Both the position numbers and the translations under genes were made by a program. Below, piece by piece: positions 121 through 63,810 of a stretch of DNA of 64,000 nucleotides. This DNA is from Heterotrichella gracilis (Eukaryota; Sar; Xanthophyceae; Tribonematales; Xanthonemataceae), in NCBI GenBank assembly GCA_032358255.1, contig JAULBX010009769.1, positions 45,288 to 109,287 on the forward strand. The letters run 5' to 3'. Numbering within the stretch: position 1 is the first letter of the stretch; every line of letters begins with the position of its first letter. A model generated the notes under the pieces. The model made no database searches, had not been told where the DNA came from, and saw only the letters and a program-made list of their open reading frames with translations.

Positions 121-1114
121 GAGGAGCGCGCGGTGATGGACGATGATGCAGTTGAGCGTGAGCGGCTGTATGACAAGGCTGAGGCGCTGTCATCGGCACT
201 GGTCCGCATGGGAGCGCAGCTGCAGGCAAGTCAGTCAGCTAACGTGCAGATTGCATGCATTCGGGTAATGCAGCAAGATGAGCAACGTATCTCTCACAAG
301 CTCGTTTTGTTATTTTGTACAAGCGCCATTCTTATGTTCATCTGTTTCGGGGTACTGTCTGTCTCCTTTGTTACACGTTTCTGCATTCTTTCTGCTCTAT
401 CATGTATAGATTCTTCCTCCTTACACCCTCCTGCCGCAGGGCGTGGCCACGGTTGCATCTACGCACCTCCACCCGCATGGTCAAGATCCTCAAAACCTTG
501 AATCATATCGAGGAGAGGAAAAAGCCTATCCTAAAAATCAAACAGAAAGAAAACATGTCTGTTTTTCTGCGTGTGCGGCGTACCCTTTCCATGGATATAT
601 CAGGTTATGATTTACTTCTTCACGCACCCTGTCGCAGGGCGTGGTTGCGGACGTGAACGCGACTGCGTCCGCCTCTGCTGGCGACCCCTCCACCCCTATG
701 GCCAAGATCGTGCGCATCCTCAACAACCAGCTGCACGCACTGACTCAGATCGATGCGCGCACAGCGCAGCTAGAGGGGGCGCTGGGGGGCGTGGTGGCAG
801 GTGGGTGGCTGGGTGGGTGGGGCGGGGAGGAGGTGGGGCGTGGTGGCAGGCTTTGGGGTTGAATCCAAGCCTTAAACTTGAACCACGGCAGATGAGATGT
901 CCTTGGATGCGATTTCCCCTGTGATCGCCGTGTTTAGGGGTTTAGGGTTTGTACTCCCGCTGACATCCGAACCCAACCCTGCCCACAGGTCGGCATGGTG
1001 CCAACGGCGTGCACTGAGGCTCCCGAAGTGGCTCTGGGCTGCAGCTTTCTTTCACACCTATCCCCAGCGATAGATGATGAAAGGGAAGGCACAAGGTGGG
1101 CATGTTTGGCTTGA
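121..1114 (+). CDS. NUP62: Nucleoporin NUP62 (Nsp1/p62 family), C-terminal part
   Basis: Last four exons of a gene entering from the left: 121-225, 638-800, 892-929 and 989-1114 (stop TGA). Phases close through all junctions. The encoded coiled coil contains the stretch KIVRILNNQLHALTQIDAR preceded by an ERERLYDKAEAL helix. This is the pattern of the p62 C-terminal coiled coil of plants and animals (a 'Y..AE.....L..M' helix, then 'ILN.QL..L..ID'). In that family the coiled coil builds the Nup62-Nup58-Nup54 channel complex of the nuclear pore. The FG-repeat part would lie upstream, outside the window. The first intron has a GC donor (AG|GCAAGT at 226). The exon 3 donor (GTGTTT, 930) is weak and was chosen because the phase then fits the last exon. 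The last ~40 residues resemble nothing I recognise. Confidence 0.75.
429..501 (+). repeat. Decayed copy of the NUP62 exon inside the preceding intron
   Basis: In the intron 226-637, the stretch 429-501 begins with the same CCGCAGGGCGTGG acceptor context as the real exon at 638. It continues with a shortened copy of the same exon (CCTCCACCC, CATGGTCAAGATCCTCAA). It lies about 200 bp upstream of the real exon and is internally deleted, so it cannot replace it. Confidence 0.7.
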
Positions 1115-1653
1115 TTTCAAGCTCTGGCAAAGAGGCAGGACATGGGCTACAGGGCACAGCAACCAGCCCGAACACTGGGCAAAAGACCTTACTAGCCAAG
1201 TACCAAAGAAGGCAGTTGGAGTAGACCGCTGGGAATGCCTTGTTGTTTGTAGGCTTGTTGCAGTTACTGTAAAGGTGACATCCCGGGACCCGGTGACATG
1301 TGCACGGTCTGGGAAATTGCTCTAGCCTAGAAGCTTCAAGCTTGCTTGTCAAGGGGACCGACCCACCGCATGGCGGCTGCCCATTTTTTGCACGCTGGTG
1401 GCGCTTGGGTTTCTTTCCTTCCCTTGTCCTAAGGCTTTCAGTAAGTGGAACTCTCAGTACGAGTCAAATGTTGCTGCGGAGCAGCCAGGGCTGTCACAGT
1501 GTCCCGTGTGCAGAACCATGATGGGCGCAGATGGCAGAATTCTTTTATTAATCTGATGGACCATACCAGGTAATGCTGAGCTTCTCAGCTGACAGTGTCT
1601 CACTGAATGGGAATTTATTAGTTGGCCAAACCATGGTCCAGGTTTTTCTCGGT

Positions 1654-1733
1654 GATACGGCACCACTCGTATCCAACCAGCAGGGGTTGTAGTATCACCG
1701 CATGCTGTCCATGTCAAAGGTTACAGACCACAC
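1654..1733 (+). repeat. 80-bp direct repeat, copy 1
   Basis: Identical by eye over 80 bp to 2870-2949 and in the same orientation. The flanking bases differ, so the edges are sharp. It has no obvious TG...CA ends and no target-site duplication was seen. Confidence 0.85.
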
Positions 1734-2949: not shown

Positions 2950-2961
2950 AGGAGGCAGTGA

Positions 2962-3161
2962 TCCCTAGGATATGTGCACCCTAAAGTGCACATATGTGCA
3001 CCCTAAAGGTTGCACAGGGTCCACTACAGACCACACACGCGGTGGTTAGTGCATTTGACTAGTCTCAAATGCACTAACATTTGAGTGCATTTGAGACTAG
3101 TCAAATGCACTAACACACAAATGTTAGTGCATTTGACACAAATGCAAATGCACTAACACGT
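2962..3161. repeat. Cluster of short inverted and tandem repeats
   Basis: The 26-mer starting GTGCATTTGACTAG is followed by its exact reverse complement, then by further partial copies of TTAGTGCATTTG. Just upstream, an ATATGTGCACCCTAAAG motif is repeated around a GTGCAC palindrome. The segment can fold into a cruciform or hairpin. No coding role is visible. Confidence 0.75.
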
Positions 3162-4953: not shown

Positions 4954-7900
4954 TCACGAGGCATCTGTGCTCAGGGGCTCATACTTGATGGGCGCCATGC
5001 CGGGCCCGAGCATGTAACTGCTGCCTGCACATTTGAGGGAAGGGGGCGGGGTCAGAAAAAGGGCCCCGTGCACATTTGAGGGGGGCAGGGCGCGGGGGCA
5101 GCAGCGCCGGGACCAAACTGCGTGGCGCCGCATGTGCAAGACTGACAGCCCACTGGCATGGGTTGCTGGAAAGGCATATGATTCACCAACTGACCACCTA
5201 CCCAGTCCCCATGATCCAATGTGGTTTACGATCATCTTGACATGCCACCAATCTCCCGTGCACACCGCCCCCACCCCCACCACCCACCTGGCGGTCCCCC
5301 TGGGCCTCCATAGCACCCATTCGACTCCCCTCCTCCCCCTTCCCCCCTGGCGCCCACCCCCAAATATGACCCCCCAAGGGGGCCGTCCCCGAGGAAAGAA
5401 TTGGGGAGGGACGCCATCTCATAGGTGCGAGGGTACCCCCCTCCATACATGTTGGGGTTGGGGCCCCCCATCGCCCCCCCTGGATGGGGGTGGGGAGGGT
5501 TGTTGTTCCCAATGGGGATGCCATCCAGGGATATGAGGGGGTTTGGGGGGGTGGGGCCGGACGGGTAGTGGTGCGGTGGGGGGCCCGAGGAGAGGGGGCG
5601 GTGGCCTGGAGGGGGGGTGACCAGGGGGGTTACAATTTGACACTGGCAGTGGGTAGGGGCTGCCTGAATTGACATTGGTTGCGACAGCATATCTGTGAGT
5701 GGTAACAGTGATAGCTATCAATTGTTGGGGCTAAACCCTAAACCCTAAACCCTAAATAGCTGCGTGTATGCACTGCGTTGTGCATGTACTCCATACCTAT
5801 GCAACACACATAGCTGGTGATTTGTCAGCATGTGTGTGTCGTTTGCCTATCACCTGCGCATGCTGCCTAGTCCACAACCCTAGCTCCAAGGTCACACTCC
5901 TCGGAAGGGTGTGGGGCGTGCATCTAAAACCCTAAATCCCCTGCCTAGGGCTGCGGCTGCTGCTGCGCGCAAGCTGACGCACTTGGCTCAAAACTCTAAA
6001 CCCCAAACCCTTATCTGCATGCACCTGCCCCCATCCCCTGCCTGAACGGCTGCGGCTGCTGTGCATTTGATGATGCTTGGCTCAAAACCCCAAACCCCAA
6101 ACCCTAATCGCCACGCACCTGCCCCCATCCCCTGCCTGAATGGCTGCTGCTGCTGCGTATCCCCCTCCGCCACCGCCACCACCGTGCATAGCATGATGGT
6201 GTCTGGTATGCATGGGTAGGAGGAGACTACCCACTGCGCCTGCTGGAGGGGCGTCAAGATCTGCACAAGGGGGGGTAAAGGGGAGTCAAGATCTGTGCGG
6301 GAGGGGGAGGTCAAGGGTAAGAAAGACAAGGCCAGCTTGTTTTGAGGGGGGCTCAAGCTGTGGTGTCATTGTGCAGTTAACGCAGCTCTGAGGAGGAAGG
6401 TACCAGCCCTGGGTTGCACTTCAGAGCTCTCAAAGTAGGGAATTTATTTACAAATTTACTCGTTGGCAGGGACAGCGGAAACCCGTGAGGACTCACATGT
6501 CTCGAGGCGGTGAGCATCAACTCCAGCACCAGCGCCTGCTCCTCCCGCAGATTGGCACGCAGCGAGTCGATCCCCGTGCACGCCTTCACATACTGTATGC
6601 TGATCTCCTGGGCTCCCGGGCCCTCGGGGATGGCGGTCTGGGTAGGCGGGAGGGATGGGTAAGGGGACGCCATTTCAAGCAGCAATCAGACATTTAGCCT
6701 GATGGGCCACCCAGCACCCAAGCTCCGACATGCATGGGCAGCCTCCACGCTGCCCAACACCACAAAACCCTAGCGCAACCCTAGCCCACCTGCCCCGGCC
6801 ACAACCCCCATCACGCTGCACTCAGCGGCCAAGAACCACCCACACCTCATTCCCCGCAAGCAAGGCCCATGCACACACTCCACCCCACCATGCACCACGA
6901 CTATTCCACACACGCCATCTCACACCCCACCCCTCACCCGCTGCGCACCCACACATCCAGACCCCCCAATGCACCGGCATGCACCTCCACACCCTGCAAA
7001 ACCCTAACTCAAACCCTAGCCACTCACCGAGATGAACGAGCAGCACTCCCTCCGCCGCTCCAGTATGCGCGACAGGCGGGACATGAACAGGCGCCGGAGC
7101 TGGAGCAGCTGGGCTCGCTGGGTGGAGCCAAGGTCAAGGGCAGCCTGCGTGAGGGAATTGTGGAGGGTTTAGGGTTTTGGCGGCAGCATATGGAGCCACT
7201 GTGCTGTGTCCCCCACGCCCCACGCCTGCACGCAACCCTCACCAGCCAGGCCCAGTTTACGGTTGCCAGGGGACCACAAGGGTGCAATCCTCTCCCACCC
7301 CAGATTCGCCTCCATGCCGTTAATGGTCCCCTCGTTCATTCTCCTGGCCGCCCTTGCGCAATCCTGCCACCACCCCATCACCACCACCATCATGCCACCC
7401 CCCCTCACCATCATTACCACCACCACCACCACCACGCCCTCTACCGCACATCCTACCCAATCCCCACTCACCAGCAGCCTCTCCCAGCCCTGGTTGGTCT
7501 CAATGCCGCTGATCGCCCCCTCGTCCTCCATCTTCTGGCAGCAGAAGCTGCGCACGCACAGCGGGTTGTACTGGCTGGTCACAATCATGAGCAGGCCCTG
7601 CAGTAGGGTGGGGGGTGTCAGGGGGGAGATAGTGTGTGTGTGTGGGTGGGGGGGGGGATAGCACACAGCGGGTTGTACTGGCTGGTCGCAACCATCAGAA
7701 GGCCCTGCAGTGGGGGAGAATGCGATCAGCGAGGATGGGACCAGGGGCAAGAGGCACGTGCACAGGTGGTTACACTGGCTGGTCCCTCTGCATAAGGTGG
7801 GACATGCTAGCTCCAGTGATCCAGCGTAGAGGTCCGGGTTCAGGTGTGTTTTGCCGTACCTGCGCAACCGGAGGTTTAGGGTTTAGGGTTTTCGTGCTCA

Positions 7901-9902
7901 CCAGTTCCTGAATGAGCTGCTCCACCCTTGGCAGCGCACGCGGGTTGCTTGATCGCTCCACCTCACCCAGGTGGATGGCCATCTTGTTGACGTACTCCTG
8001 CAGGTGAGGGTGGAGGGGAGGTTAGGGCTTGGATGTGAACGCAAGGGTTTAGGGTGTGGCAGGGTGTTGGTGTGAGCAACAAGGGGGTTCAGCGCCACGA
8101 AGCAGGAACCCGAACCCACTCCAACACTAACCCAATTGACGGTGCGCGGGTCTGCCGCTGCAGTACCAAATTGTGCTTCTGTAGAATTCGTGGATTTAGT
8201 GCTTTTAGGGTTTCTCCGCGCAGCGCGCGCACCTGCCACAGCTGCACCAGGTCGCTCCTGCTGAGCTGCTGTATGTCCTCCGTGGTCAGGGTGATGGGCC
8301 CTTGAGGAATTCAGGATTTCTGCCTACGCGCATGCACCTGCCACAGCTGTTGCCCCACTTCTCCTGTGCAGGGCTTTTAGTTTTAGGGTTCCAGGTTTCA
8401 GGGTCTGCGCACCTGCCACAGCTGCACCAGGTCGTTCCTGTTGAGCTGCTGTATGTCCTGCATGGTCAGGGTGATGGGCTCGCCCTCGCGCACAGTCAGC
8501 ACCACGGGGGACCGGCCCACCTCAGGCAGCTCGACCACCAGGGAGGAGAGGCTGCTGCCGGGGCCCTGAATAAAAAAATTAAAATAGAAATAAGTACCCA
8601 TCCTTGAACAGGCTGCAGATCCAGGGGGGTGATTTGAAAATTATGGAGGTGAACTCAGGGAGGAGGGGGCTGCTGCTGGTGCCCTGAACAACCCAGGAGA
8701 CGAGTGTGAATGCAGAGAGTTTAATTTCAAAGTTGGGTAGGAGTTGCTGCTGGACAGTCCAGGGGGTTCAGTTCAAATCAATGATCACACAGAATTGTGG
8801 CAGTTTTGAAGCAACTTCAACTCTGGAGCAATTCAAGGCGACTTTGCAATACAGGCAAGAAATGGCAGATAGTGCCAGGGTGAAACTGTGTCTTTGGCGC
8901 CGCTTGTGCAAGGCTGACTGCCACCTGGCTGTACTGCTCCAGCGCATGTATGTGGCTGACTAACCTGCCATACAATCAAATCCAGAGTAACCCAAGCCAG
9001 CTGGAGTTCAAATCAAAATATGCGGAGGGTGGCGTGAAAAGCCAGGTGTGTGCACATGTGAGGTGGGGGGCACGTGGCGTGTTGGTGGTGGCGGGGGGCA
9101 CACTTTTGGTATGAGTAGAGTGTTTGCTGGACTGCTAAGGGAAACTCTGGACACACACAGTGCAGAGCTGGCCAGCAAGAAACCTCCCCCTGGTCGAATG
9201 GCTGGCTTGTTTGAGTGGCATGGGGGCACACACCAAAGCTAGCCTTGCTGTACTGCTGAACTGCACGTGACTGTTGACTGGCCAGCATGCCGCACACCTG
9301 CTGACTGGCCAGTACCCGCCTGCAGTTAGCGGGCTGTTGCAGCTATCTACACACACAAGGGCGTAGAGGAAAAGCGTGGTACCTGGCCTCCTGGTTTCTC
9401 CTGGCCTGGTAGACTTCAGCTGCTCCTCCAGAAGCAATACTGCTTAACTGCACCCACTCAAGTAAAGAGGACATTGACACCACCCACTGCTGACTAGAGC
9501 TACCTACCTATGGTTGTATAGGGTGCACACACACAAGGGCTAAGAGCAGGGTGCAGTGGGTAATACCTGGCCTCCTCCTGCAGGGCCTGCTGCCCTGCTT
9601 AACTTGAACTGCTCCAACTGCTGGTCCTTCACCGCAAGGACCTTCTCCATGATCTTGTTCCGTCCATCCACCGCTGACTTCTCTGCAGTGATGGCTGTCA
9701 ACTGGCTGGTGAGCTCCACCACCCGGCTCTCAAGCTCTGTTAGGCGGCCCTTCTGGCGCTCCCGAAACCGCCGCTGGGCCCTCCTGTTCTTCTCCTGGAC
9801 GCTGATCTTTCCATCGAGCTTGGACCGGGTGGCGCTGGTTGGCTGCCTGTCCTTCCTGCCTCGCCCCTTTTCTTCAGAATCTGAATACTCGCTGCTGCTC
9901 AT
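4954..9902 (-). CDS. bZIP transcription factor, nine exons
   Basis: Exons 9567-9902 (ATG at 9902), 8413-8565, 7902-7997, 7472-7597, 7028-7144, 6497-6637, 6119-6260, 5288-5479 and 4954-5026 (TGA) keep phase throughout and give about 458 residues. The basic region has N39 in the frame N-x7-R (NRRAQRRFR), followed by a heptad zipper (L58, L65, I72 region). This is a DNA-binding dimeric nuclear factor. The NRxAQxxFR form is the one typical of fungal Yap/Pap1 factors; land-plant bZIPs usually have a different core. The middle exons encode a helical region with repeated L, R and E residues. It may correspond to the regulatory helical region that follows the zipper in some plant bZIPs, but this is not secure. 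The C-terminus is Pro/Gly rich. Exon echoes lie in most introns. Confidence 0.82.
5940..6080 (-). repeat. Two echoes of the bZIP exon 6119-6260 donor end
   Basis: Positions 6021-6080 and 5940-5992 repeat the donor-side end of the exon (CCCCTGCCTGAA-GGCTGC on the plus strand). The nearer copy also keeps a GT donor. The spacing is about 92 bp. Confidence 0.7.
7290..7362 (-). repeat. Echo of the bZIP exon 7472-7597 donor end
   Basis: The translated echo on the minus strand reads MNEGTINGMEANLGWER against MEDEGAISGIETNQGWER in the exon, about 178 bp away. It is still open in the same frame. Confidence 0.75.
7663..7790 (-). repeat. Two echoes of the bZIP exon 7472-7597 acceptor end
   Basis: Positions 7663-7712 and, more decayed, 7755-7790 repeat the acceptor-side part of the exon (GGTTGTACTGGCTGGTC and GGCCCTGCAG on the plus strand). 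The steps are about 109 and 93 bp. Confidence 0.7.
8227..8366 (-). repeat. Two echoes of the bZIP exon 8413-8565 donor end
   Basis: Positions 8227-8301 are a near copy of 8406-8480, including the GT donor. Positions 8325-8366 are a shorter decayed copy. Steps are about 80-100 bp. Confidence 0.8.
8628..8766 (-). repeat. Echoes of the bZIP exon 8413-8565 acceptor end
   Basis: The stretches 8628-8692 and 8733-8766 resemble the start of the exon (GGGAGGAG-GGCTGCTGC then the CCCTGAA acceptor on the plus strand). Confidence 0.6.
9383..9432 (-). repeat. Echo of the bZIP exon 1 donor end
   Basis: TACCTGGCCTCCT and the following GCTGCTCC resemble the end of exon 1 (9562-9620), about 180 bp away. A GT donor is retained on the minus strand. 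Confidence 0.55.
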
Positions 9903-13592: not shown

Positions 13593-16500
13593 ATGCTGAG
13601 GCGGCCGGTGGTTCAAAACCAGCCTGGTGGCCTGGTGGCTCGAGTGGGGCCCCAGTTGCAGCCTGTGCACTCCGCCCGTTTCATCCCAAGGAGGTTTCTG
13701 GGAAGGGCACAGCAGTGGCGGACGTATGCCGACAACCCCAACGGCTCTGCGCTAACTGAGGTACCGAAAGATGGCAGGACCGAGCTGGAAAGGAAGGAGG
13801 AAACCATCGTCGTTGTGCCTGCAACTGCACGGGCACAGCCAGTGGCACAGGTATTTTAACGTGATCTCTTGCCCAGGCTTCGTACAGTAATGCAATTGCT
13901 GCTGATCTGGGTCACCAGGGGCTAAGTTCCATGTCTGCTTTTGCCTGCGGGCTTCTGGGATAGGGTTATTGGGCGCTATGTGTGAAACTATATGCATGCA
14001 TGGTACCACCGGTGCTTTCCCTGCCAACGGCGTTGCTGTGTATGGGTGCAGCCACAGGTTGTGAAGACACCGCAGCAGAGCAGCAATGGTGGCCAGTCCG
14101 TGCCTCCCGAGGTTCAAAAAGCCAGGGCAACCCAAGATAAGGTGCAGGCGATGCGCTCCTTGCTCGAAAGTAAGTCGACGCCCCTCGGTGCAGTTTGGGC
14201 CACCATGCACAGGTTGTGACGCGTTGACTAGGCTCAGGCAGCAAGGCCTTTTGGGCAAGCATCGGTTTCGAGTAATAGATCGTTTGTTGTGGCTGAAACG
14301 AGACTTGTAGACTACACATCTTGGCAAACGACCCACTTCATACCAGCTGTCCTGCAAAACGCAAATGGGGTGGTCCACCGGTTAGTCTAGTGCAGTGAAT
14401 GAAGGGCTGAAAGTTGGATGGACGCCGTCGCTGCGTGCACCAGTTCCGTAGAACGGTTCGCATGGTGCAAAGCTGACGTCGCTGTTTGAATTCAACACTT
14501 CCTACCACCGACCCTACCACACATGCCGTGCCTGTCGATACCTTGGCAATCGCCACTGCGCGCATCCCACCCTTACCCGGCCCGGCCAGCGACTCTCTGC
14601 GCTCCTTCTGAAACGGAGTGTGCTGAAAGTTGAGCTCTGGCTCTCATTTCCGATTGGCATGATCCCATGTTTTGACCACCATGCGTACAGCGCCATGGGA
14701 ATATATTCACAGTTGGTAGATGCCCACTTTTTCCCTGCAAAACAGCAGCAGCATATAGCAGTTACGGGCATTCCTCTAGTGTGCGCCCACACCTACCCCT
14801 CACCCCATCTCCACACCCACACCCCAACCCTTCTTCTCTTTTACCCTCCCCACTCACCTCCTGGACCCCGTCACCCACAGCCACCAGTGCTGAGTGCAGT
14901 TTAACCCATCAGGCTGGCCTAAGGCTGACCTGTGTGGCCTCAAGGCCAACAGATCATGTAGCCACCAGTGCCCACCCCGTTGTCATACCCATACCCACCC
15001 CACCCCCGTATACCCCTCACACCTCCCCCCAACCCCCCACACACATGCGTTGCTCACAAGCACCCCGCGCCCCACTTTGCAGCCACAGTTGCTGAGCGGG
15101 ACCGGTTCAAGGCGGAGCTGCGGGCTCTCAAGGCCACGAGAGCGTATGTAACCACCAGTTCCACCCCGTTTTTCATACCCATGCCCACCCCAACCCCCTT
15201 GCACCCCTCACATACCTCCCCTCCCCCTTTTTACCCTCCCCGCTCACCTCCCGGTCCCTTTCTCCCGCAGCCACCAGTGCGGAGCGGGACCGCTTCAAGG
15301 CGGAGCTGCGGGCTCTGAAGGCCAAGGACAGTGTGCGGCGCATGCGCGAGGTGGAGCGGGAGCTTGCGCTGTCGCGGCAGGAGACGGCAGAGGCAAACGC
15401 ACGGGTGAGGGGGGTGTTGGTGGGGGTTGGGGGGGTAACGACGAACGCGCCGGTAGAGGGCGGTGTGTGTGGTGGTGGGTGGTGAAGGAGGGGTGCAAGG
15501 TCAAGGGCAAAAACACTGTGGGGGCTTGCGCGAGGTGGAGCGGGAGCTTGCGCTGTCACGGCCGGTGACAGCAGAGGCAAACGCGCGGGTGAGGGGGTTA
15601 GGGTGGGGGTTTGGCAAGGGTTACATGCGCCGTTACAGGTGGTGTGTATGGATTTTGGTGGTTTTGGGTGGTGGGGGAGGGGTGCACGGGCAACGGCTGG
15701 GTAGTACTGTCGGGGGGGTGGATTGAAGCGGGAGGTTGTGGAGGCCACGGCATGGGTGAGGGGCGGGTGAGGGGTAGGGGGTGAGGCAGTGCTCAATGCA
15801 AGAGTGGGGGTGGGTGGGGAGGGGTGCGAGCAGGGGAAGGAAGTGCCCTTCTGAATCGCCTACACTTTGCTGCCCATGGTGACCAACAAATAATGCGCAT
15901 TGGCGAGCGAGCGCCTCCCTAGAGACCGCTGTGCTGGATGCCAAACAGCGGCTGGGAGAGCTTGAAGCCACCTGTACCCTCCTGAACCCTAACCCTAACC
16001 CCAAACCCTAGCTACATAAGGGAAGGCCACCATCCGCTCTGTGCCCTTACTGCTGTCACCAACACCCACTCCCTCCCCGTTTTTTCAGGCCAGGCGGGCG
16101 AACGAGTCCCTTGAGACTGCTGTGCTGGGTGCCATGCAGCGGCTGGAGGAGCGGGTGAGGGGGTCCCTGGAGGAGGAGGGGAAGCTGGACAAGAAGCTGC
16201 TGGAGGTGGGTTTACAGGATTTATGAGACATAGGGTTTATGGTTTTTTACATGCATTGCAGCAGAGGCAAGTTTAGCAGTCAGTCTTGCACATGCAGCCC
16301 TTACTGGAGTTCCTGTTTTTAAAAAACTGTTCAACTTTTCAGGAGCAGCTGCGTTACGCCATCAGCATCGCCCAGCAGTCAGAGGCTGAGCTCACGAAAG
16401 TAGTACAATGTGACAAGATATGGTCTTGCAACAAGAAATCAGTATAACATGACAACTAAACAAAGAACGATGCTGACCCTCTCAACTCGTGCAAATCTCT

Positions 16501-42284: not shown

Positions 42285-42403
42285 TATCCTGCTGCCAAGT
42301 GGTGAGCTGTTGGCAGCCGGCTGCACAGTTGAAATCGTTCGCGTCATGAACCATTTGACTGTGCAGGCGAGTCGCCACCAGCTCCCCACTTGGCAGCAGG
42401 ATA
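42285..42403. repeat. Imperfect inverted repeat, arms of about 52 bp
   Basis: TATCCTGCTGCCAAGTGG at 42285 returns in reverse complement at 42386-42403. Inner segments (GCTGCACAGTTGAAAT / ATTTGACTGTGCAG) also pair. The loop is ~15 nt. It could be a fold-back element or a small-RNA precursor hairpin. Confidence 0.8.
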
Positions 42404-42694
42404 AAAAAGGGTTTAAGGGTTAAGGGTTTAAGCTTAGGAGCTGTCCAATGCGATGCGGCACATACACCCAGTAAGCGCCCAGTGGAGGGCCGTTGGACCC
42501 GTGTGCATATTTTGGGGGTTGGTTTACAGTAGGGTTTCTGTAGGGGTTTCAGTAGCATTTTCCGTGTTCTGTGCATAATTTGGGGGATGCTTTATTGTAG
42601 GGTTTTCAAGCATGTGATACTCACATGTGCAAGCTACCCATAATTTATGTGCAAGCTAGTCCTATCAGCTGTGGCATGCCGCGGCCAATTCCAA

Positions 42695-43275: not shown

Positions 43276-44041
43276 GCTTTAACACCACGCACAAGCGTTA
43301 CCGATTGGGCCTGTAGGCGATCATCCGATGCAGTGTAGGCATCGTGTGCACATGTGTAGGTCCTGTCATCAGTGATTTGGAACTGCAATGCTGGAGCGAG
43401 CATGGTTCAGTGCGGTGGCTGAACCCCCACTTGCGTAGCATCATCGTAAATTGTAAATTCATTGTCTTGAGAGACATATCAGTTGTAATTACCACGTGCC
43501 ATGGGCGGAATAATTGAAATGCGTAGATCTACCAGACTGGTCCACCAGTCACCATGGTCTCTCCACCCCCACCCATCGATGATCATAGCGGGGATAGCCC
43601 TACCCTAGCTATACCCTGCTGCAATCCTCCAAACCTCCCTACACCAGTCGGCGAGTGCTTTTTCCACTTCTTATTATACCCAAGCAGGTATACTCTCCCA
43701 AACTGTAGCCAACGAAAAAAATCCGATTCAAAATATTCATATGCAGCTTTGCTTGTAAATATTTGAACAACAAAGTATTGTAACGAATGTACTGACTGCT
43801 GCAGTCAGTAAAATTCTCTGGACTGCATAAGATGTTATAAACAGTATTGCACCTGGCAAGACATCTCCCGCATTCACTGACCCTGATTAGGGTGCACAGT
43901 CACCTCCTCAGCACACTCTGAGGAGCTCCTACTCCACATGCCGTACCCCCACTACCCCCTCTTAAAGACTACTGCTCCGCCCCTCGCAACTACAGGTAGA
44001 CTACTGCTCCGCCCCTCGCAATTATATAATGGTGCACACCT
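43276..44041. other. Spacer
   Basis: The left part is the family 3' flank of fragment G. A directly repeated ~30-bp segment (GACTACTGCTCCGCCCCTCG, twice) lies at 43966-44022, next to the end of the following minus gene. No gene is seen. Confidence 0.5.
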
Positions 44042-50113: not shown

Positions 50114-52373
50114 GCGAGCATTGGGGCCAGGTCCTGGTGTACGCAGTGGTTAATGTAGGTACAATGTGAGGCGGACAGAATCATAGGTATTAAGGCAGGC
50201 ATAGGTATGATATGATGCAGATATAGGTATTGAGGCAGGCATAGGTATGATATGACGCAGACAGGACCCTGCGACGATTTCATGTGGGTGGGGGTTGGCA
50301 GGGCTCTGTTCTTGCAAGTGCTACAATATGTCGGTGCTTGATAGTGGTGGGGCTGGAGCACGGCTTGGGGGTGGGGCAGGGATTAGTTTTGGAAGTTGCC
50401 CTCTGAGAAGAATGTATGATGTAGGGTTTGCATTTATTTTGCACATTTTGTAGGTACATGTAGGTCAGTGGTGTCTTGCGAGCAAACCAGCTTGCCTGTG
50501 TGCACACGTTGTATTATGTTTTGCATTGCTGCACTTTATATGGCACGTGCGTGTGGTGTTGTCTTTATTCGGGCTTATTAGTATCATCAAGATGGTATAG
50601 TACATGGCCAGCGCAGTGTTTACGAGGCCAATGCGGGTACTCAATTTTGAGGACACAGAGTGTAAAAAGGACTGGTTACAGGATAACATATTATGACATA
50701 GCAAGCTCGTTCTTTGCTCCCCGCGATTCTTGCACTGGCAGACATTAACTGGGGCTATGCTTAGGTGCTATGCCCTTGTCACTCACGCCGTGTTCCACTG
50801 GTTGCTGCCCGACCTGTCTGTGTTTTTCAACATTGCTGCTTGTGGTGTGTGGTGGCGTTTTGTTTCTTGGGCATTGTCTGCAAATGTCCACCCAGGGCCC
50901 ATACGCATTTGCAATGTCCACGGCTGGCGCTATGAAGAGGGCGTCAGAATGGGCTTGTGAGGCAACAAGCAGAAACTGTCTGACAAAGGCTTAGCAAAAG
51001 ATGGCGCGAACCGCCGCTTGCACCGCCGCCACCGCTGCCACCGCCGCAGCAAGGGAGGCACAGACTGGAGGTCTCTAGCGGGCGAGTCGCAACGTGTGAC
51101 CAACACCCATTTGCTTCCGGCGACTGTCTGCGCCCTACAAAGGGATCGTGCAAGCTATTTTCTGCTTCAATCTAACGCCGTCGCTCCTACTGTCGAGCCC
51201 CTGCCACCGTTCGCTGCCCCGCTGCTGGCCATCTCGCCACTGCCACCGAATCCCACCATCGAGACTCCTGAAAGGGAAGCACTGCGTCGCCACTCGAGCC
51301 CAAAGTCCAACCTCCGGTTTGCTGTTATTGAAATACATAGACTGCTGCTTCCAAAGCAACGACATAAAGGTACGGAAACCCCTGCCCACCCAACCCCAGG
51401 TGTGCATGCACCTCTCCGAAACGCGCCTTCGCAGCAAGCCCTGCACACCAGCAACACTTGGAGCTGGTTGCCGCCGTGTTTGTAACACACATTTATAGCT
51501 TCAAAAGTATCTTAGGCCTTGCCAAAGTGCGGCGCTGTACGCCGTTCCGTTGCCAACGCCAGATCATTCTCCCAACTGTGCTGATGATTGTGCAAGCACG
51601 CACCCACACCAGCTTGGGCAACACCAGTAATACCACCCACTTGCCACGCCACGCTCGCTAGCAAACCCACCACCTCTAAGACCCACAGCGAGGTCCTCAC
51701 CCGCACTTTGCAAAGCCGCACCCCTGAAACGCTGCCTGAAGCATTGCCCAGTACTGGTTTCTTGTCCAAGGTGCGCACCTTGAACAAGAAACCAGTACTG
51801 GGCAATGCTTTAGCATGCTCCACACACGTCTGACAGAATGCTGCAAAGTTCACCGGCCATTCCACTTGGAAACTTGTAAATATATCGCTGTGCAACCGTA
51901 GGTGTTTTTCTTGTGCCAGAGACCTGTTCCCTCTCCTGCCCATCACAACCTCCTGCAACCCACATCAGGAAACCTCCCCAGCAGCCGGCGTGCGGTGCCT
52001 TCATCCCTGCCCAGCGCGCTCTCGAAGCGCACACAGGTTAGGGTATACCACGCACACGGTGCATCTTCCACGCTGTATCACCATATTTGAGTCCCTTTTG
52101 AACAGCCTTGCTGCCATATAACTTCATCGCCACAACGCCTTGAAACCTTTTCTGCGCAACACGCCCACCTCATATATGCTAGGTGACACACTGTGTGGGC
52201 CCTGCACACAGTCTTGGTGCATGCATATGGCCTTTTCTTTTGCTACCTTGCCCCAACGTAGGCGCACCCGCAAACGGCACAAACAACCTGCTATCATCTG
52301 CACCGCTGCAAGAAACTGACTTGTGTTGCATGCTACCAGTTTGCAGGCCCGTGTCCCATCCCGCGCACCAAAC
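50114..52373. other. Spacer and possible 5' exons of the next gene
   Basis: Early part: short AGGCATAGGTATGATATGA repeats near 50190-50260. An ATG at 51001 opens a short Ala/Thr-rich frame (MARTAACTAATAATAAAR) like a transit-peptide start. Phase-compatible exon candidates are 52347-52373, joined to the next gene's ATG region, and a stretch ending at 52036 (SSRRAVPSSLPSALSKRTQ). They may be its true 5' exons. A 72-bp palindrome lies at 51740-51811. Confidence 0.45.
51740..51811. repeat. 72-bp near-perfect palindrome
   Basis: AAGCATTGCCCAGTACTGG at the left end is mirrored exactly at the right end. The centre AAGGTGCGCACCTT is itself palindromic. Only one base pair is mismatched over two 36-nt arms, and there is almost no loop. 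Confidence 0.92.
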
Positions 52374-55926: not shown

Positions 55927-58900
55927 CTAGCTGGGCGGGTGCCGGTGCGAGCCCAGGCTTGCGCTGCTCCCCCCCTGCGCCGTGGAGTCCTCAAAACCCT
56001 CCATGGGCGGCGCCCGCAGGGTTTCGGCTATGCCCCTCTGCACGTCCTCATAACTGACCAGGGGCGGCGTCCGCAAGGCTTCAGCTACGTTCCTCTGCAC
56101 TTCCTCAAACTCATCTGGGGAGAGGGGAAGGCCGACGTGAGATCCCTGGGATGATCCCAGGGTGGCTGTGGGCCGGGACTCATTTTTTCTTGTTCGCATC
56201 CCTGGCGCCTACGTCCCTCCCATACCCTGGTAGGCCTGGGAGTTGAACTGGCGCATGGTTTCGGCGATCCCCATCTGGAGCTGCAGCGGGTCGAAGCCCC
56301 CAGGATCCATGGTCAGGCTCATGTTGCGAAAGGAGGGGAGCTCCGACGTGAGGGTGGTAGGCAGGTCCAAGGAATCCGCGCCGGGGCCGCCGCCATGCGG
56401 GTCGGGGCCCAACTGCGCGCGCCCCATCCCGGCTTGCCCGGAGGGGTGGGGTTGTTGCAAGGGGGCGGAGGGTCCGGCGTTGTCTGCATTCAGCAGCTGC
56501 TGGAGGTAGGAGTTGACTGCCTCCTCGGGGGGCGTGGCGTTGGGGGGTGGGGGGGAGTAGGTGGTGGGGTAGGCGGGGGGTGGTGGGTGGAATTGCGGGT
56601 CAGGGCCACCTGGAGGAGGGGAGAGGGGGGAGACATGAGGTGTCGGTGGAGCACAGGGCCTAGCTGCATATACCCTAGGGTTTTGAGGCAGGCAAGCTTT
56701 CAACATCATTTGTGCCAGGTTTCCAGGCCCCCAATATTTGCATCTGGGGATGGGGATGGTCCCCACAGGTTGCACCCATGCACAACCGCCTAGAGGTGCT
56801 GTGCAGTAACTTGCATCAACTGTCATTCCTCCACATGACGTTATTTTGATACTGACCCCATACTCAGCATGGCCACGCCAGCTTGCTGCCAACACCCTCC
56901 ACTGCCCCTCCCCCAAAACCCTGCACACCTCCAAAACCCTAATCCTAAACCCTACACGCAACCCCTTGCGCACCTCCAATCCCTCCCATCGCCGCCTCCC
57001 TCACTTCCAGCGACAGGCTATTGCTGAACTCCAATCCCTAACCCTTCAGCCCTACACCAAAACCCTTGTGCACCTCCAAACCCTCCCATCGCCGCCTCCC
57101 TCATCTCCAGCGACAGGCTATTACTGATCCCCCTTAGAAACCCTGCAAACCTCCAAACCCTAACCCTAGACCCTACACCCCAAACCCTTGCGCACCTCCA
57201 AACCCTCCAATCGCCGCCTCCCGCATCTCCAGCGACAGACTATTGCTGATCCCCTTGGTCAGGAACTCCATGCTCAAATCCGAGCCCAACATTTCCACAC
57301 TCCGCACATTTGTGACGTATAGGCCCCCCCCACTGCCCTCCTCGTCGTAGGAGGCTTCTGCGGAGGCTGGGCGGCGGGGGGCGGGCGAGGAGTGGGGGCC
57401 GGCGGTGGGGGTTGAGGCGCGCGGGTGGGCGCTGTCGAAGCTCCGTTGGTCTGCGGGGGGTGGGGGGTGGGGGTTTGTTTGGTGGAGGGGTTGGAGGTGG
57501 GTGGGGGAGGGGGATTGTTTGGAGGAGGGGTTGGAGGGGGGTGGATGCGGCTGACCTAATAAAGGGTAATGAGATAACACTAGTCCTAGATTTATCCTAT
57601 TGCCCTTGACCTAATGTGGCACAACCTTACACACAGAATCTAACACCTCATGTTTACATAATAAAAATATGAACTACCTGTACAACTTCAGTGGTGAGTT
57701 CAGGCTGTAAAGGCCAAGCTGGGCAGCGCAGATGTGCAAAGGCAACCACACACCAGGCACAACTGCCGCAGCTTGCCATGGCTGTTCTGGGATTTCTATG
57801 CTTTCTGTGATTTTTATGCTTTCTAGAATTGCTATGACTTCTGTGAGTTTCTCTACTCACCCTCTGCGGTGTGGTGTGCGGGTGTTGCGCGGGATCCACA
57901 GGCAGCCTCCGCCTGCTGGGGTCGGATGCAGCAATATACCCTAGGGTTTTGAGGGTTTGAGGGTTTTGAGGGTTTCCAACCTCACTGTTTTGTTGGGATG
58001 CCCTGTGTACTTCATCCTGTTCTTCTAAGGGTATGCTAGGGTTTTGGTCCTGTTTCCCACTCACCACCCGCAGTGTGGCCGTGAGGGTGCTGCGCACGAT
58101 ACCGAGGCAGTTATCGCCTGTTGGACCGCCACGTAGGGTATCTATGCACCATTTCTAGGGTTTTGATCCTTGCTTTTACGGCTATGGGTTCTGTGCAGTT
58201 GTCCTCCTGCTCTTGCAATGGCATTTCAAGGTTTGAATACTGGTTTTCGACTCACCGTCTGCGATGTTGTCAGAGGGTGTTGCGCGCGATCCTGAGGCAG
58301 CCATTGCCTGCTGTCCCGCCGCCTTCAGATCAGCAGACTGCACTTGGATGGTGTCCCATCCCGGGTGGCCGGCCTGGGGATGCAGCACAAGCAGCGTCGG
58401 AATTTGGGAATAGCTTGCCGGGCACACACAAGGGGAAGGGGTGCATGGCAACAGTGGGGTATGGCAAGGGCAATACAATAATAATAGGACCTATTATAAT
58501 CTTATTACCCTTGGATACGGGGCCTGCTGATCCCTTGCCCACAAATGTGCCTCTCAAGGTTTTGCATGCAAAGACTAGGAAAAAACGCATGGGTTATGAA
58601 TGCCCCCCCAGTGCTCCCCATTGAAGCCCCCCTCCCCAACTCTGCATCCCCACCATCCCCAACCTCCCCACCAGCCTCAGCAGTGCTGAGTCAGCACAAA
58701 ACTCCATGTTGCTGTGGTTCTGCAACAAACCCTCCCCAAATGTTGTGCTATGCCAAATCCTTGGGTCGGGCGCCGTGTGTGGGGGGGATTCAAATTCGTA
58801 CCATGCGCAGTGCAGTACCAGGCAAACCCTACAACCCCCCCCCGCCCTCCCTCCCCAGCACAACCACCCACCTGCCACCAGCATCCCACCCCTTGCCAGT

Positions 58901-61900
58901 GCAGGTGCTGCATGAACTCGCATGCCTGCGGGGTCAGCAGGGCACGGGGCGTGGCCCTCCACTCGGCGGGGTAGTTGGGGTTTTCACTGGCAACCTTGAG
59001 CAGCAGGCCTGCAAGGTGGGGTTTGTAGGGTTTCAATGTAGGGTTTTCACTAAAGGTAATAAGGATAACTGGGGTTTTCACTGGCAACCTTGAGCATCAG
59101 GCCTGCAAGGTGGAGTTTATAGGGTTTTGATGTAGAGTTTGTAGGGTTTACAATACAGGGTATGTGGGGTAGTTGGGGTTGTCACTGGCAACCTTGAACA
59201 GCAGGCCTGCAAGGTGGGGTTTGTAGGGTTTTCACGGGTTGTGCTACACCACCACCACCAGCCACCACCACCAACCACCACCACCGCCACCACCACCACC
59301 ACCACCACCACCACCCACCTGCCGGCCGGTCCAGCACCACCTCCCCCCAGTCTGCATAGAACAGCAGGCCAAACTCGGCCTCGGGGTTGAAGGGCGGCAT
59401 CCAAACCCTAAGGAGGGTGTCCCGCTCCACCGCCTTGCGCGCGTGCTCCGCTGTCTCCTCCCAGCAGTCTGGCGTCAGCTTGAGCACCTTTTGGATCTTG
59501 CGTTTGAGGGAGGAGTCGTGCTCTACCCAGTCTAGGAGCTCCTTGAACTGGCCAACTGTGATGGAGAGGGGGAAAGGGCTTGGGTTGTTTCGTTCGCATG
59601 GTGTTTGGCATGGGTTAGGAGGGATTTTGATAGGGATTTGGTATAAGCCGCTCGGGGGAGGCAGTGCGCTCTACACAGTCCCAAAACCCTTACTGCCACC
59701 TAAAACCCTACAGGACGATCCCCACCCGTGGTCATACAGTTTGTGGATACCTTCAGGCACGCCCCCTGGACAGCCTGGCACACGTCCGGGCATCCGATAT
59801 TTCCACAAATGCCCTGCACTAGGGTAATACCCATGCACTAGGGTAACGCACCCCCCACCTTGTGTTCCCACAGTTCCCATGGACCCAAATCACCTCCCCT
59901 ACCCCCTACCCCCCACACCACCCACCCAAGGGTGGGTGGCTCCAGCTCCACCTGGGTCTCCAGGGCAGCCTGGCGCAGGTCATGAACCCAAACTTTCCCC
60001 GTAATACTCCTAAAAAAACCCTAAACCCTAAACATCTTTGCAAAGCCTGTCCTTAGGGCAATGCACCCCCTCATCACTTGTAACGCAGTTCGCGGGAACC
60101 TAAATGCCTCCCATCAATCCCCCACACCACCCACCCACCTGTGGTCACGCTGTTGGTGGGCGGCTCCAGCTCCACCTGCGCCTCCAGGGCAGCCTGCCCC
60201 AGGTCATATGAACCCAGAAGTTCCCCAGGATGTCCCTAAAAAGACCTATCTTTAGGGTTATGCACCCCCCCCAATTGTGGTCCCGCAGTTTCCGGGACCC
60301 AAAACGCCCCCATTCCCTCCCCCACCTGTGGTCACGCTGTTGGTGGGTGGGTCCAGCTCCACCTGGGCCTCTAGGGCAGCCTGCCCAGGTCACATGAACC
60401 CAACAATTCCCCAGAATGTCCCTAAAAAGACCTATCCTTAGGGTAATGCACCCCCACATTTGTGGTCCCGCAATTCCTGGGGACCCAAATCACCCCCCTA
60501 ACCCCTACCACCTACCCCCCACGCCACCCACCCACCTGTGGCCACGATGTTGGTGGGTGGGTTCAGCTCCACCTACGCCTCCAGGGCAGCCTGGCCCAGG
60601 TCACATGAACCCAAAGATTCCCCAGAATGTCCCTAACATGACCTATCCCTAGTGTAATGCACCCCACATATTGTGGTCCCGCAGTTCGTGAGACCCTAAA
60701 ACGCCCCCCCCCACCCCCACCCACCCACCTGTGGTCACGCTGTTGCTTGGTGGATCCAGCTCCACCTGCGTCTCAAGCGCAGCCTGGCCCTGGTCACAAT
60801 CCAACACCCTACCCTAGGCCAATGCCCCATTACCGTTGACACCCCTTTTAAGTCCTATTGCGTTGCCAGAAAATGCCTGAGGCCACCTACCGTACCCCCA
60901 CCTGTGGTCACGCTGTTGGTGGGTGGGTCCAGCTCCACCTGCGCCTCCAGGGCAGCTTGGCGCAGGTCCGTCAGCTTCTCCACGCTCTCCTTGCCCATGT
61001 TCTTCAGCTTGCGCACGCTGTCACCCACAGCCGGAACCTCCTTCTTGGCGGCGGTCTTGCTGCGCCGGGTGGCCACCTGCGGGAATGGGTTGTGCGCTTT
61101 TAGGGCTGGTGGTTTAGGTTGCAGGGTTGGTGTTTAGGGTTTTCAAGGGTTTTGTTTCCAGGTTGTCCACGCTTTCCTTGCCCATATTCTTCAGCTTGCG
61201 CACGCTCTCAACCACAGCCGGAACCTCCTCCTTGGCAGCGGCCTTGCTGGGCCGGGTGGCCACCTGGGGTTTCGTGGTTAGGGTTTCAAAATACCATAAA
61301 CCCTAAACAGCTCTTTAGCTTGCGCACGATGTCGCCAACACCTGGCACCTCCATTCAGGTAACCATTACTGCGCCTCACTAGAAAAGACTTTTAACAGCG
61401 CCAGCTGTATGTCGGTCGGGCTGCGTTTAGGGTTTTGCGAAAGTTTCCATAATATTTGCTAGGGTCTTCATTAGGGTTGCACGCCACTACAAAGGGATCC
61501 AACAGCGCTGGCTGGATGTCGGTCAGAATTCCACTAGGGTTTTGCTAGGGTTTGTATTAGGGTTTTGCGCGCCTCACCACAAAGGGGTCCGACAGCGCTG
61601 GCTGGATGTTGGTTGGGGTGCCATCCGCGTGCACCGCCCGCACATACAGGCAGTACATGAGCTTGCTCCCCTGGAGCCCGCTGCTGCTGCTGCTGATCTG
61701 GAGGTCAGGCAGGTGCGCAACGTCGCCCTGCAAAAACGAAACCCTAGGTAAGGGTTTCATTATACCGGGAGTGTGCGCACGTCGGCTAACAAGGGAGCAG
61801 CCAAGGTAAGGGTCTTGTGGTTTGTACAGGCAGCACATGAGCTTGCTACCCTGCTGCTGGTCTGGAGGTCAGGCAGGTGCGCAACATCGCCCTGCAAGAA

Positions 61901-63644
61901 AGAACCCTAGGTAAGGGTTTTGCGGCTTGCAGGTCGGACAGATGTGGCATGTCCCAACGCTGAGCCTGAGCAAGGGTTTCGTGCTATGTGGTTCAGGCAG
62001 TACATGAGCTTGCTGCCCTACAGCCCTACACATGGCCACATCCCTCAACACAGATGGCTACAGCCGTGGGGTGTTGCAAAGCTAGTGAATTTAGGGTTTA
62101 CCCCTTGGGGTTTTCCCTCACCTCCATGCGGATGGCCACGCTCCCCGAGGGCTTGACCGCTGCATCAATTTCGTCGGTGCGCTTCGGCATGAGCAGCGGA
62201 GCACCCTGCACAAGGGTTTTCAAAGCGCTCAGACGATACCCTAGGCACGTCTCCTTTGCACCCTTAGGGTTGCAGCGGCGCAGCAAGGTACCTAGGGTAA
62301 GGCCAGAACAGCCTGCATGCCTGATGCACGGAGGATTGGTAGGAGCCACAGACTCCCATTGCATGTTACACAACCCTAACCTTCGCATGTGGTGCGCAGC
62401 TGTGTTTGTGCGCCCGTAGGGTGTTTTAAGCCTCATACATGCTCCCACCTTTGAAATTCAGCACTGCCAAATGCTACGCGTGCAGTGTGTCGTTGAATGT
62501 AAGCTTTAGGGTACTCTAGGGCTTTTGCAGCCCCACCCCCTCGTTTTGAACGCCACAACATGATCCACGTGCTAGAAAAGTTTGCCAGTGGTAGTTTTTT
62601 TGAGTTTTTTGATACTCACATCCTTGGCCTTGAGCACGGCAAACTGGTCCACGTTAGCGGGGGTGTTAGGGTTTTGAGATTTAGGGTTAGGTTTTCCGCA
62701 CGCTCACATCCTTGGTCTTGAGCACGGCAAACTGGTCCACGTTTGCCGGGGTGATGCTCCCTGCCTCTACGTCAGTGTAGTTCACAACAAACACCTGCAG
62801 CGGCACGGGAGCGATTAGGGTCTGCAGTGGGGTCTCCATTAGGGTCTCCATTAGGGTCTAGAGTGTAGTTCACAACAAACACCTGCAGGAGGGGACGGGG
62901 CATGCATGTGAATGGAGAAGACCACACGGGTTTAGGTTTATGCGCCTGCAACAAACCATGGTCTCACAACACTACTCCTTATGGCTAATCTTTCCCACCC
63001 ACCCACTCACCCGCATTACATTACATTACATTACATGCACGCCCTCGGAGGGATACATCCACCCACCCATCCACCCACCCACCCACCTCCATGTCCAAAT
63101 CCGCCACCCGCTCAAACATGACCGCTGCCTGGCCGCATGAACCAGCTCCACCCGGATGGGCGCACCCATCACAAGGCTTACACAAAGGTTTATAATGCCA
63201 TTTCACTAGGACTTCACAAGGATTCCCAGCAGGGTTTTCACAAGAGCTTCCCCCACCCACCCACCTCCAGGTCGAAATCCGCCACCTGTTCAAACATGGG
63301 CCACTGGCTGGCCGCATCCACCAGCTCCACCCGAATAGGAGCACCGCACGACAAGGCTTACACCAGGGTTTTTACCGGCACTTCATTAGGTCTTCAAAAG
63401 GTTTTCCAGCAGGGCTGTTAATGGACTACATCCCCACCACCCACCCACCTCCAGGTCGAAATCCGCCACCCGCTCAAACATGGGCCGCTGGCTGGCCGCA
63501 TCCACCAGCTCCACCCGAATGGGAGCACCGCACCGCGCCTTGATTGCGTCGCCCACGTAGTACCGCTCCCCAAAGGTGCGCCGGCACTGCCGCTCGGGCG
63601 CGTTTCGGCACAGGCAGCAGTCCTGGGACTGGCAGGACACCCCA
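55927..63644 (-). CDS. Large multi-exon protein, weakly CBP60-like; 5' end open
   Basis: Exons 63449-63644, 62708-62794, 62122-62205, 61578-61727, 60902-61076, 59319-59555, 58872-59008, 58256-58337, 57196-57555, 56226-56609 and 55927-56114 (TAG) are in phase (~692 residues). At least one exon is missing upstream, since the first one here starts in phase 2. The N-terminal part has a Cys cluster (CQSQDCCLCRNAPERQC) and a beta-rich stretch (GAPIRVELVDA). A helical block follows (VGQFKELLDWVEHDSSLKRK ... CWEETAEHARKAV). The order 'VELVDA ... helical block ... W..... EHA' recalls plant CBP60 calmodulin-binding transcription regulators, but similarity is weak. The C-terminal third is Pro-rich and ends in repeated units (VQRNVAEALRTPP / VQRGIAETLRAPP). 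Introns are full of exon echoes. Confidence 0.7.
56965..57132 (-). repeat. Two echoes of exon 57196-57555 donor end
   Basis: CACCTCCAA-CCCTCC-ATCG with CGCCTCCC and CCAGCGACAG recurs at 56971 and 57071, against the exon edge at 57193. Steps are 100 and 122 bp, and both copies keep the GT donor on the minus strand. Confidence 0.88.
57850..58125 (-). repeat. Two echoes of exon 58256-58337 donor end
   Basis: ACTCACC followed by GCGGTGTGG and GGGTGTTGCGCG (57855), and a second copy at 58059, match the exon edge at 58250. Steps are about 204 and 191 bp. Confidence 0.82.
59020..59230 (-). repeat. Two echoes of exon 58872-59008 acceptor end
   Basis: CACTGGCAACCTTGA-CA-CA with GGCCTGCAAGGTGG recurs at 59079 and 59183; the real edge is at 58985. 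Steps are 94 and 104 bp. Both keep the AG acceptor, and TAGGGTTT words lie between. Confidence 0.9.
59250..59318. repeat. (CCA)n microsatellite
   Basis: About 20 CCA/CCG triplets lie directly intronic of the donor of exon 59319-59555. Confidence 0.9.
59920..60901 (-). repeat. Tandem array of five exon-end/donor/intron units
   Basis: The donor end of exon 60902-61076 (CACCTGTGGTCACGCTGTTG on the plus strand, then CAGCTCCACCTGCGCCTCCA) recurs at 60136, 60323, 60533 and 60726, and in partial form at about 59927. Start-to-start steps are about 209, 187, 210, 193 and 173 bp. Each unit also carries GT donor, intron sequence (CACATGAACCCA..TTCCCCAG.ATGTCCCTAA) and a GGGTAATGCACCCC segment. Confidence 0.92.
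61150..61360 (-). repeat. Echoes of exon 60902-61076 acceptor end
   Basis: A ~110-bp near copy of the exon's acceptor half (TTCAGCTTGCGCACGCTCTC ... GGTGGCCACCTGG) lies at 61160-61275, 186 bp away. A shorter copy lies at 61310-61352. Confidence 0.88.
61365..61525 (-). repeat. Two echoes of exon 61578-61727 donor end
   Basis: ACAAAGGGATCCAACAGCGC and the following GCTGGATGTCGGT (61482), and an older copy at 61373, match the exon edge at 61571-61620. Steps are about 89 and 109 bp. Confidence 0.82.
61825..62026 (-). repeat. Echoes of exon 61578-61727 acceptor end
   Basis: CATGAGCTTGCTACCCTGC with GGAGGTCAGGCAGGTGCGCA recurs at 61838-61900 with its acceptor. AGGCAGTACATGAGCTTGCT recurs at 61996. 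Confidence 0.85.
62610..62665 (-). repeat. Echo of exon 62708-62794 donor end
   Basis: CTCACATCCTTGG-CTTGAGC with GGCAAACTGGTCCACGTT recurs 88 bp from the real edge, and the GT donor is kept. Confidence 0.9.
62858..62892 (-). repeat. Echo of exon 62708-62794 acceptor end
   Basis: TGTAGTTCACAACAAACACC and the TGCAG acceptor recur about 90 bp upstream in the gene's sense. Confidence 0.9.
63084..63370 (-). repeat. Two echoes of exon 63449-63644 donor end
   Basis: CACCTCCA-GTC-AAATCCGCC ... CCACCAGCTCCACCCG recurs at 63084 and 63262; the exon edge is at 63446. Steps are 178 and 184 bp. The nearer copy has only a handful of changes over ~85 bp. Confidence 0.92.
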
Positions 63645-63751
63645 CTGGAAAGGGGGAAGAGGGCTGAATTTAAAGGATTCGCAACGGGTTCTGTAGGGTT
63701 TATATGAAATTGCAGTTTTCCGCAGGGTTTTCGTAGGGCTTTTCTATTTTT

Positions 63752-63810
63752 CTTGGCGGGTTTTCGGCACAGGCAGCAGTCCTGGGACTAGCAGGACACG
63801 CCGCTGCACG
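63752..63810 (-). repeat. Echo of exon 63449-63644 acceptor end
   Basis: CGGCACAGGCAGCAGTCCTG with GGACACGCCGCTG repeats the acceptor edge of the exon (63604-63650), about 145 bp away. Confidence 0.88.

Follow-up and report, generated by a model that had tools for sequence, protein, structure and literature searches.

Internal duplications of gene segments reshape exon–intron structure, and the short duplications that are left by patch repair show little or no microhomology at their breakpoints. Here we analyse a window of 64,000 nucleotides (the whole stretch of DNA under study, part of contig C99, JAULBX010009769.1) from the 68.5 Mb, 903-contig assembly of the xanthophyte alga Heterotrichella gracilis, in which introns carry decayed direct copies of the edges of their own neighbouring exons; these copies are referred to as echoes. 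One of the closest known cases is a potato gene described as carrying a tandem duplication across a junction (PMC4974935). As in the echoes, a tandem duplication across an intron–exon boundary has made an exonic piece intronic and the splice signals are inherited, but that is one recent duplication backed by RNA and by relatives, whereas in the present genome echoes were found at 39 of the 232 predicted edges, with up to six copies, and the copies are old and decayed. In addition, introns here are seemingly lengthened rather than newly made; the Rogers model of intron gain by tandem duplication (AGGT) calls for a new intron at a site that had none.

A second comparison is offered by rice, in which tandem duplications shorter than ~200 bp are the commonest source of insertions, making up most of those not due to transposable elements, and are ascribed to the repair of nearby nicks (PMC7971508). 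They are enriched at 50–200 bp, their share of insertions falls from 70% to 5% by 200 bp, and duplications that are only partially tandem, as well as insertions templated from nearby, are reported too; patch-repair duplications of rice are also the subject of Vaughn and Bennetzen 2014, as cited in PMC7407515. The echoes share with the rice duplications their tandem arrangement and an upper size limit. In rice these are recent varietal differences, whereas the present ones are fossil, legible at about 35 per 100 kb, and have two length modes and telomere-like fillers. Introners (PMC9860276) would also add intron sequence on a genome scale, but they copy themselves into many genes, whereas each echo is private to its exon. 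The echoes look like a known mutation class, short tandem duplication, in unusual abundance, with an unusual anatomy and of old age. Apart from these single cited cases, no account of this exon-edge anatomy was found among the literature matches listed, subscription papers lying mostly outside the search. Set beside a single-gene published case, the echoes form a dense fossil record of duplications that span junctions, on which one could test how frequently such events lengthen introns, create decoy splice sites or found new introns.

The initial annotation had pointed to exon edges that recur in the adjacent intron, and this observation was confirmed. All 12 pairs taken from its eight examples outscored 500 of 500 dinucleotide shuffles, from the weakest (429 vs. 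638, 36/47 identical with 2 gaps) to the strongest (63262 vs. 63446, 127/143 identical). The presumed nuclear sample comprised 304 kb in 23 stretches including the window, the nuclear status of the other 22 being presumed from composition; one stretch consisting wholly of N was left out before all counts, and two bacterial stretches were left out of later counts. An ungapped scan of 324 kb (the 304 kb plus 20 kb of a bacterial contig, low-complexity sequence masked) revealed 259 direct repeats less than 1.5 kb apart, vs. none after each stretch had been dinucleotide-shuffled once. In a self-comparison of the window, 39 of 56 direct matches lie within 1 kb. Nearest-neighbour pairs with offsets of 40–600 bp were taken as events, of which the window holds 36.

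Exons were our own predictions from sequence. Exon finding trained to convergence drifted to 1267 exons with a median of 34 bp, and a conservative four-round run was used instead (166 exons, 13% of the 304 kb). The predicted exons have CAG/GTGNG donors and pyrimidine-rich CAG/G acceptors, which mark the window as eukaryotic. The set is imperfect, in that exons were missed and four window echoes were mistaken for exons, a caution for gene predictors generally. Five rows of the edge test in which the predicted exon is the echo itself were kept in that test and in the identity-step, splice-dinucleotide and 35-edge homology counts given below, and were removed from the codon-change count and from the 28-edge visibility set, which also omits two edges with offsets above 260 bp.

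The exon-edge alignment proposed by the initial annotation was run on these predictions, with a copy scoring at least 20 inside the 800 bp flank counted as an echo and 8 of 240 edges with less than 400 bp of flank left out. A direct copy was found at 39 of the 232 testable edges. When the same edges were aligned to flanks of other exons (2320 trials), a score of 16 was reached at a rate of 0.001 and a score of 20 at 0.000, and reverse-complement and shuffled-flank controls gave 0.000 in 232 each. The cross-locus rate of 0.000 means that no sequence family common to many genes, of the kind expected for introners or transposons, was detected in those trials. The suggested privacy of each echo to its exon was likewise upheld for one array: across all 68.5 Mb of the assembly, 63440–63640 has four matches, all within about 720 bp and in this one gene. 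The statement that almost every gene is affected was too strong; of the testable edges, 22 of 80 have an echo in the window and 17 of 152 at the other loci, and the F-box/LRR stretch at 28–43 kb has few. Event density ranges from 0 to 11 per 10 kb between loci, with events in 20 of the 23 presumed nuclear stretches. Tandem duplications shorter than 260 bp number 107 in the 304 kb, and a rough extrapolation, which ignores bacterial contigs and the uneven density, would mean tens of thousands of events in the assembly.

We consider it probable that each echo is the exonic half of a short tandem duplication (~60–240 bp) across an exon–intron junction. The extra copy is direct, local, private to its exon and largely free of coding constraint. 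After such a duplication the spliceosome would stay with the donor or acceptor that preserves the message, and the other copy would turn intronic, decay and lengthen the intron. Duplications within exons would be purged by selection unless in frame, whereas within introns neither copy is held in place, and drift with many indels would quickly make the pair unrecognizable, so that a process blind to gene structure could seem to copy exon edges. The most likely source would be end joining of breaks formed by two nearby nicks on opposite strands, in which long overhangs are filled in and extra filler is sometimes added, the patch repair that has been proposed for rice.

If junctions were duplicated, intron sequence should have been copied along with the exon edge. 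Four of the 39 edge echoes miss more than two edge bases and were omitted from this comparison, and one more was omitted from the dinucleotide count since its re-alignment failed. The intron beside the exon is homologous to the intron beside the echo, above every cross-locus control, at 23 of 35 edges, and at 17 of 28 in a stricter set from which the five echo-as-exon rows and two rows with offsets above 260 bp were removed. Some of the 23 rows are marginal (for example 14.0 vs. a best control of 13.5), and the homology often spans only part of the filler between the copies. For gapped pairs, 72 of 104 (69%) gave p ≤ 0.1 on one side, with ~19% expected, pairs within an array not being independent. 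Exact matches continue past the junction for a median of 6 bases at acceptors and 4.5 at donors, vs. 3 in unrelated introns. The arrays at 59.9–61.0 and 63.0–63.5 kb consist of plain tandem units that hold an exon tail and an intron head, and comparison of identities along the array places the drift of the intron part in the exon's own unit and in the outermost copy. The proposed tandem duplication is supported in that the copies are direct, local and mostly 60–240 bp apart, with the intron copied at 23 of 35 edges; targeting of the junctions was not established.

Several results weigh against simple tandem duplication. At 12 of the 35 edges no intron homology is detectable, though the identity of their exon blocks is 0.928 vs. 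0.922 at the other 23. In the six-copy array, echoes compared with one another are more alike in their blocks (0.81–0.94) than in their fillers (0.55–0.82; 0.94 vs. 0.70 for the third and fourth echoes). Neither was predicted, because plain tandem duplication with even neutral decay gives neither. Moreover, the non-synonymous share of changes between exon and echo is 0.48 (84/175 over 2046 aligned bases), clearly below the 0.70 of pure neutrality (p = 7e-10), and ancestral, pre-duplication states are inferred. In a set of 28 edge-spanning duplications, the scan threshold was passed by the exon half in 25 and by the intron half in 4, but this six-fold gap in visibility is an upper bound because the edges had been chosen through a visible exon half, which makes the 25/28 partly circular. 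Doubling within exons is only weakly depleted (1 vs. 4.0 expected, sd 2.0).

The edges without intron homology and the likeness of echo blocks would both follow if echoes underwent gene conversion by their exon; fast-changing introns or filler-bearing, non-tandem duplications are alternatives. According to the conversion account the tandem duplications are old, their exonic halves are refreshed from the exon or from its complementary DNA and so stay near 92% identity, tracts end at the splice junction where homology ends, and the intron halves drift away. The identity step at the junction speaks for it. In the mean of 32 edges, the 20 exon bases next to the junction are 0.87 identical, with lower values further in, where blocks come to an end; on the intron side, consecutive 10-base intervals give 0.73, 0.47, 0.38 and 0.35, then 0.25–0.28. 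Exon–echo identities bunched at 0.84–1.00 in the 35-edge comparison of the sampled loci point the same way. So does the non-synonymous share, which lies under that of a freely evolving echo: by our own arithmetic a neutral echo facing a constrained exon should give ~0.55, and a value below both 0.55 and 0.70 could reflect slight constraint or conversion. However, no tract was demonstrated, block identity is inflated by local alignment, and at the 23 homologous edges local intron identity is 0.75–0.98 in gapped alignment, near the neutral expectation, which makes refreshing needless there. We therefore regard gene conversion as possible but doubtful, and retain junction-spanning tandem duplication.

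The echoes had also been described as carrying the splice site. AG or GT is kept in 29 of 34, in line with the 28.4 expected from the identity of adjacent exon bases, and is absent from the aligned place in the other 5. With upkeep of the site at chance level and 84 of 175 changes non-synonymous, no sign of functional alternative exons or splice sites was found in these sets; judged from sequence, the echoes look mostly neutral and are probably non-functional. The notion that they litter introns with decoy splice sites holds in the sense that these 29 would leave potential ones.

Identity was claimed to fall with distance from the exon. This is the case in the array at 63.0–63.5 kb (95 then 90%) and for the pair at 20.0 kb (95 then 75%), but not in the six-copy array at 59.9–61.0 kb, where the exon block matches echoes 1 to 5 at 86, 90, 93, 91 and 87% in order, nor at 59183 (64/66), which is nearer in identity to 58985 than is 59079 (69/78). 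The idea that the genome keeps duplicating its junctions was not demonstrated, as only 5 of 100 blocks of at least 40 bp reach at least 97% identity, the youngest copies having maybe been collapsed by the assembler. The bunched identities together with the rarity of young pairs could stem from a burst of duplication in the past, from refreshing, or from the merging of identical copies during assembly. That introns have been lengthened is in agreement with the unit lengths of events shorter than 260 bp, which sum to 4.9% of the 304 kb and 7.9% of the window.

Concrete hints at the repair process come from the two length modes of the units and from the step in identity at the splice junction. 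One stretch chosen for motif matches (L032) was included in the 129-event set, the identity histogram and the half-way-copy test, and excluded from rates, the placement test, the counts below 260 bp and both bimodality tests. Among the 129 events none falls between 240 and 263 bp, nine have offsets of 264–600 bp and seven are at least 300 bp. Excluding this stretch, 107 of 116 events are shorter than 260 bp, as for patch-repair duplications, which mostly stay below ~200 bp; the longer mode lies at the edge of the rice range. Two modes were resolved, at 105 and 190 bp (93 and 187 in the window and, less strongly, 111 and 194 at other loci). The gain in the Bayesian information criterion (BIC) for bimodality is 25 for 99 events, 23 for the window (33) and 10 for the other loci (66), and under a uniform 60–240 bp null (200 draws) it has a mean of 5.6 and a maximum of 35, which is above the observed 25. 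The gain exceeded 0 in 192 of 200 locus bootstraps, and Silverman's test rejected a single mode (0/500). A sharp peak at 184–195 bp beyond the two broad modes was not significant (p = 0.09). The 190 bp class was also considered as two rounds of 95 bp, which was not supported: a half-way copy scoring at least 16 occurs in 2 of 42 events vs. 8 of 84 outside flanks.

These features can be combined into a more far-reaching proposal, in which a burst of nick-pair duplications made most of the introns, chromatin setting the unit length (about one nucleosome repeat, 190 bp, or half of it), while exons refresh their own echoes by gene conversion and edges stay legible in fast-turning introns. We regard this full combination as unlikely; the link between the 190 bp mode and nucleosomes is inference only.

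The abundance of echoes at exon edges could also mean that junctions are themselves targeted, for example by breaks at transcription-linked structures at splice sites. Of 116 events, 36 have one copy at a predicted exon edge, the second copy lying outside exons or spanning a whole predicted exon, vs. ~8.5 after random shifts for the same two classes and ~12.9 for every class with an edge; the identity step and the 30 of 39 echoes that reach the last exon base fit as well. However, 69 of the 116 events touch no predicted exon, though exons are under-predicted, and wherever tandem duplication has put a copy of exon sequence into an intron, the unit necessarily crossed a junction. Because intron halves are hard to see (4/28), intron-only duplications must be missing from the count, and the three- to four-fold edge excess may stem from this. 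Targeting is therefore not needed, and we consider it improbable.

A further alternative is that filler was inserted, either telomere-like CCCTAAA or something akin to an introner, and that the target-site duplications were exceptionally long (~20–120 bp). It would suit the sharply bounded cases at 16336, 16785 and 62862 and the enrichment of CCCTAA/TTAGGG between copies (5.76 per kb vs. 2.20 per kb in other exon flanks). The 17-base CCCTAAACCCTAAACCC has 2437 matches genome-wide (1206 + 1231, overlaps in longer runs counted), vs. 1 for the reversed control. Against insertion, fillers share homology with the adjoining intron stretch at 23 of 35 edges, fillers of different loci score only at control level among the 35 edges compared, and random target sites would not end within a few bases of a splice junction, which leaves this explanation very improbable. 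CCCTAA runs are sense-biased, at 118 to 59 in other exon flanks and, where a filler meets a predicted exon, at 18 to 5. Their density outside events correlates with event density across the 23 loci (Spearman 0.60, p = 0.003); both may simply follow intron-rich genes. Runs of CCCTAAA are scattered through the genome, for example at 17827–17878 of the window, and may supply branch-point-like CTAA sequence.

An 894 kb contig of the same assembly (C1, 36–38% GC, stretches L005 and L006) carries Bacteroidota-like genes, as judged by eye from the open reading frames of L005, and the culture or sample is thus impure. Although this impurity lends something to an assembly artefact, in which haplotypes or read chimeras are stitched side by side, we find the latter hardly credible, as the copies are ~9% apart with 101 transitions, 74 transversions and 84 of 175 changes protein-altering, which resembles neither haplotypes nor read errors, and as events recur in 20 of 23 presumed nuclear stretches while 20 kb of C1 has no direct repeats within 1 kb (the nuclear rate would give 7.6, although bacterial DNA makes a weak control).

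A group of echoes lies in a minus-strand, CBP60-like gene at 58968–63663, whose product just reaches the Pfam cut-off (25.5 bits) for PF07887, a calmodulin-binding domain of plants; a search of solved structures gave a chance match only (E = 0.38). Excluding exons that are themselves echoes, four of its six predicted exons have echoes. An exon edge near 58985 is accompanied by two copies (58968–59231, offsets 94 and 198). Exon 60902–61076 has five donor-side echoes at 59931–60796, with successive offsets of 173, 193, 211, 186 and 224, and an acceptor echo at 61159–61269 (offset 187, 111 bp, 90%). Exon 61578–61727 has a donor echo at 61485–61523 (offset 90) and an acceptor echo at 61824–61921 (offset 164–180), with a further partial copy at 61991–62026. 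Exon 62708–62794 is flanked by a donor echo at 62615–62665 (offset 88, 94%) and by an acceptor echo at 62862–62888 (offset 88), in which CTGCAG and 21 exon bases are identical. Two donor echoes of exon 63449–63663 occupy 63075–63349 (offsets 184 and 363), and 63603–63647, near the 5′ end of this exon, is echoed at 63762–63806 (offset 159), CAG starting either block.

On the plus strand, a coiled-coil-like exon at 16530–16682, identified by exon prediction and the edge test, has an echo on either side. Its acceptor echo at 16336–16390 comprises TTTTCAG and 48 exon bases (offset 187, 96%), the intron alignment score being equal to the best control and not above it, and its donor echo at 16785–16873 (offset 189) has a 67-bp core of 99% identity, with no intron homology found. 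Nearby are an acceptor-side copy of 15267–15324 at 15079–15136 (offset 188), a donor-side echo of predicted exon 15342–15404 at 15521–15589 (offset 184), in which the intron half is homologous, and an echo of the head of exon 16089–16205 at 15902–15961 (offset 191). Exon 18904–19075 has an acceptor echo at 18788–18812 (CCCCCAG and 18 exon bases, offset 109) and an echo of its tail at 19206–19253 (offset 200), and exon 20046–20240 has two acceptor echoes, at 19854 and 19949, within 19854–19986. The exon starting at 638 has a weak acceptor-side echo at 429–475 (extent approximate, offset 209, 36/47, 0/500 shuffles). The segment 48130–48192, on what is taken to be the plus strand, is copied at 48332–48394 (offset 202), with a second, shorter copy near 48537.

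The remaining echoes are on the minus strand. Donor-side echoes of predicted exons 7472–7588 and 8413–8601 are found at 7289–7335 (offset 189) and 8227–8299 (offset 180, 95%), respectively. A copy of 7557–7608 lies at 7664–7715 (offset 107) with ACTGCAG near the minus-strand 5′ end of the block, and tandem copies at 57022–57254 (offset 122) overlap predicted exon 57196–57450.

Another gene of the window encodes an F-box protein with LRR-like matches. Taken by themselves, this gene and the CBP60-like one would suggest a plant-lineage organism, probably a green alga. Direct repeats among the F-box/LRR genes at 27905–43412 are mostly ~3 and 4.5 kb apart with 67–88% identity and are ordinary local gene duplication at a larger scale. 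An isolated 86-base direct repeat (1653–1738 and 2869–2954, 99%, 1216 bp apart) is unlike the short-unit class. Imperfect palindromes of 70–148 bases, 78–95% identical to their own reverse complement, are present at 51736–51813, 3045–3157, 41999–42145 and 42277–42411, and are possibly small inverted-repeat elements.

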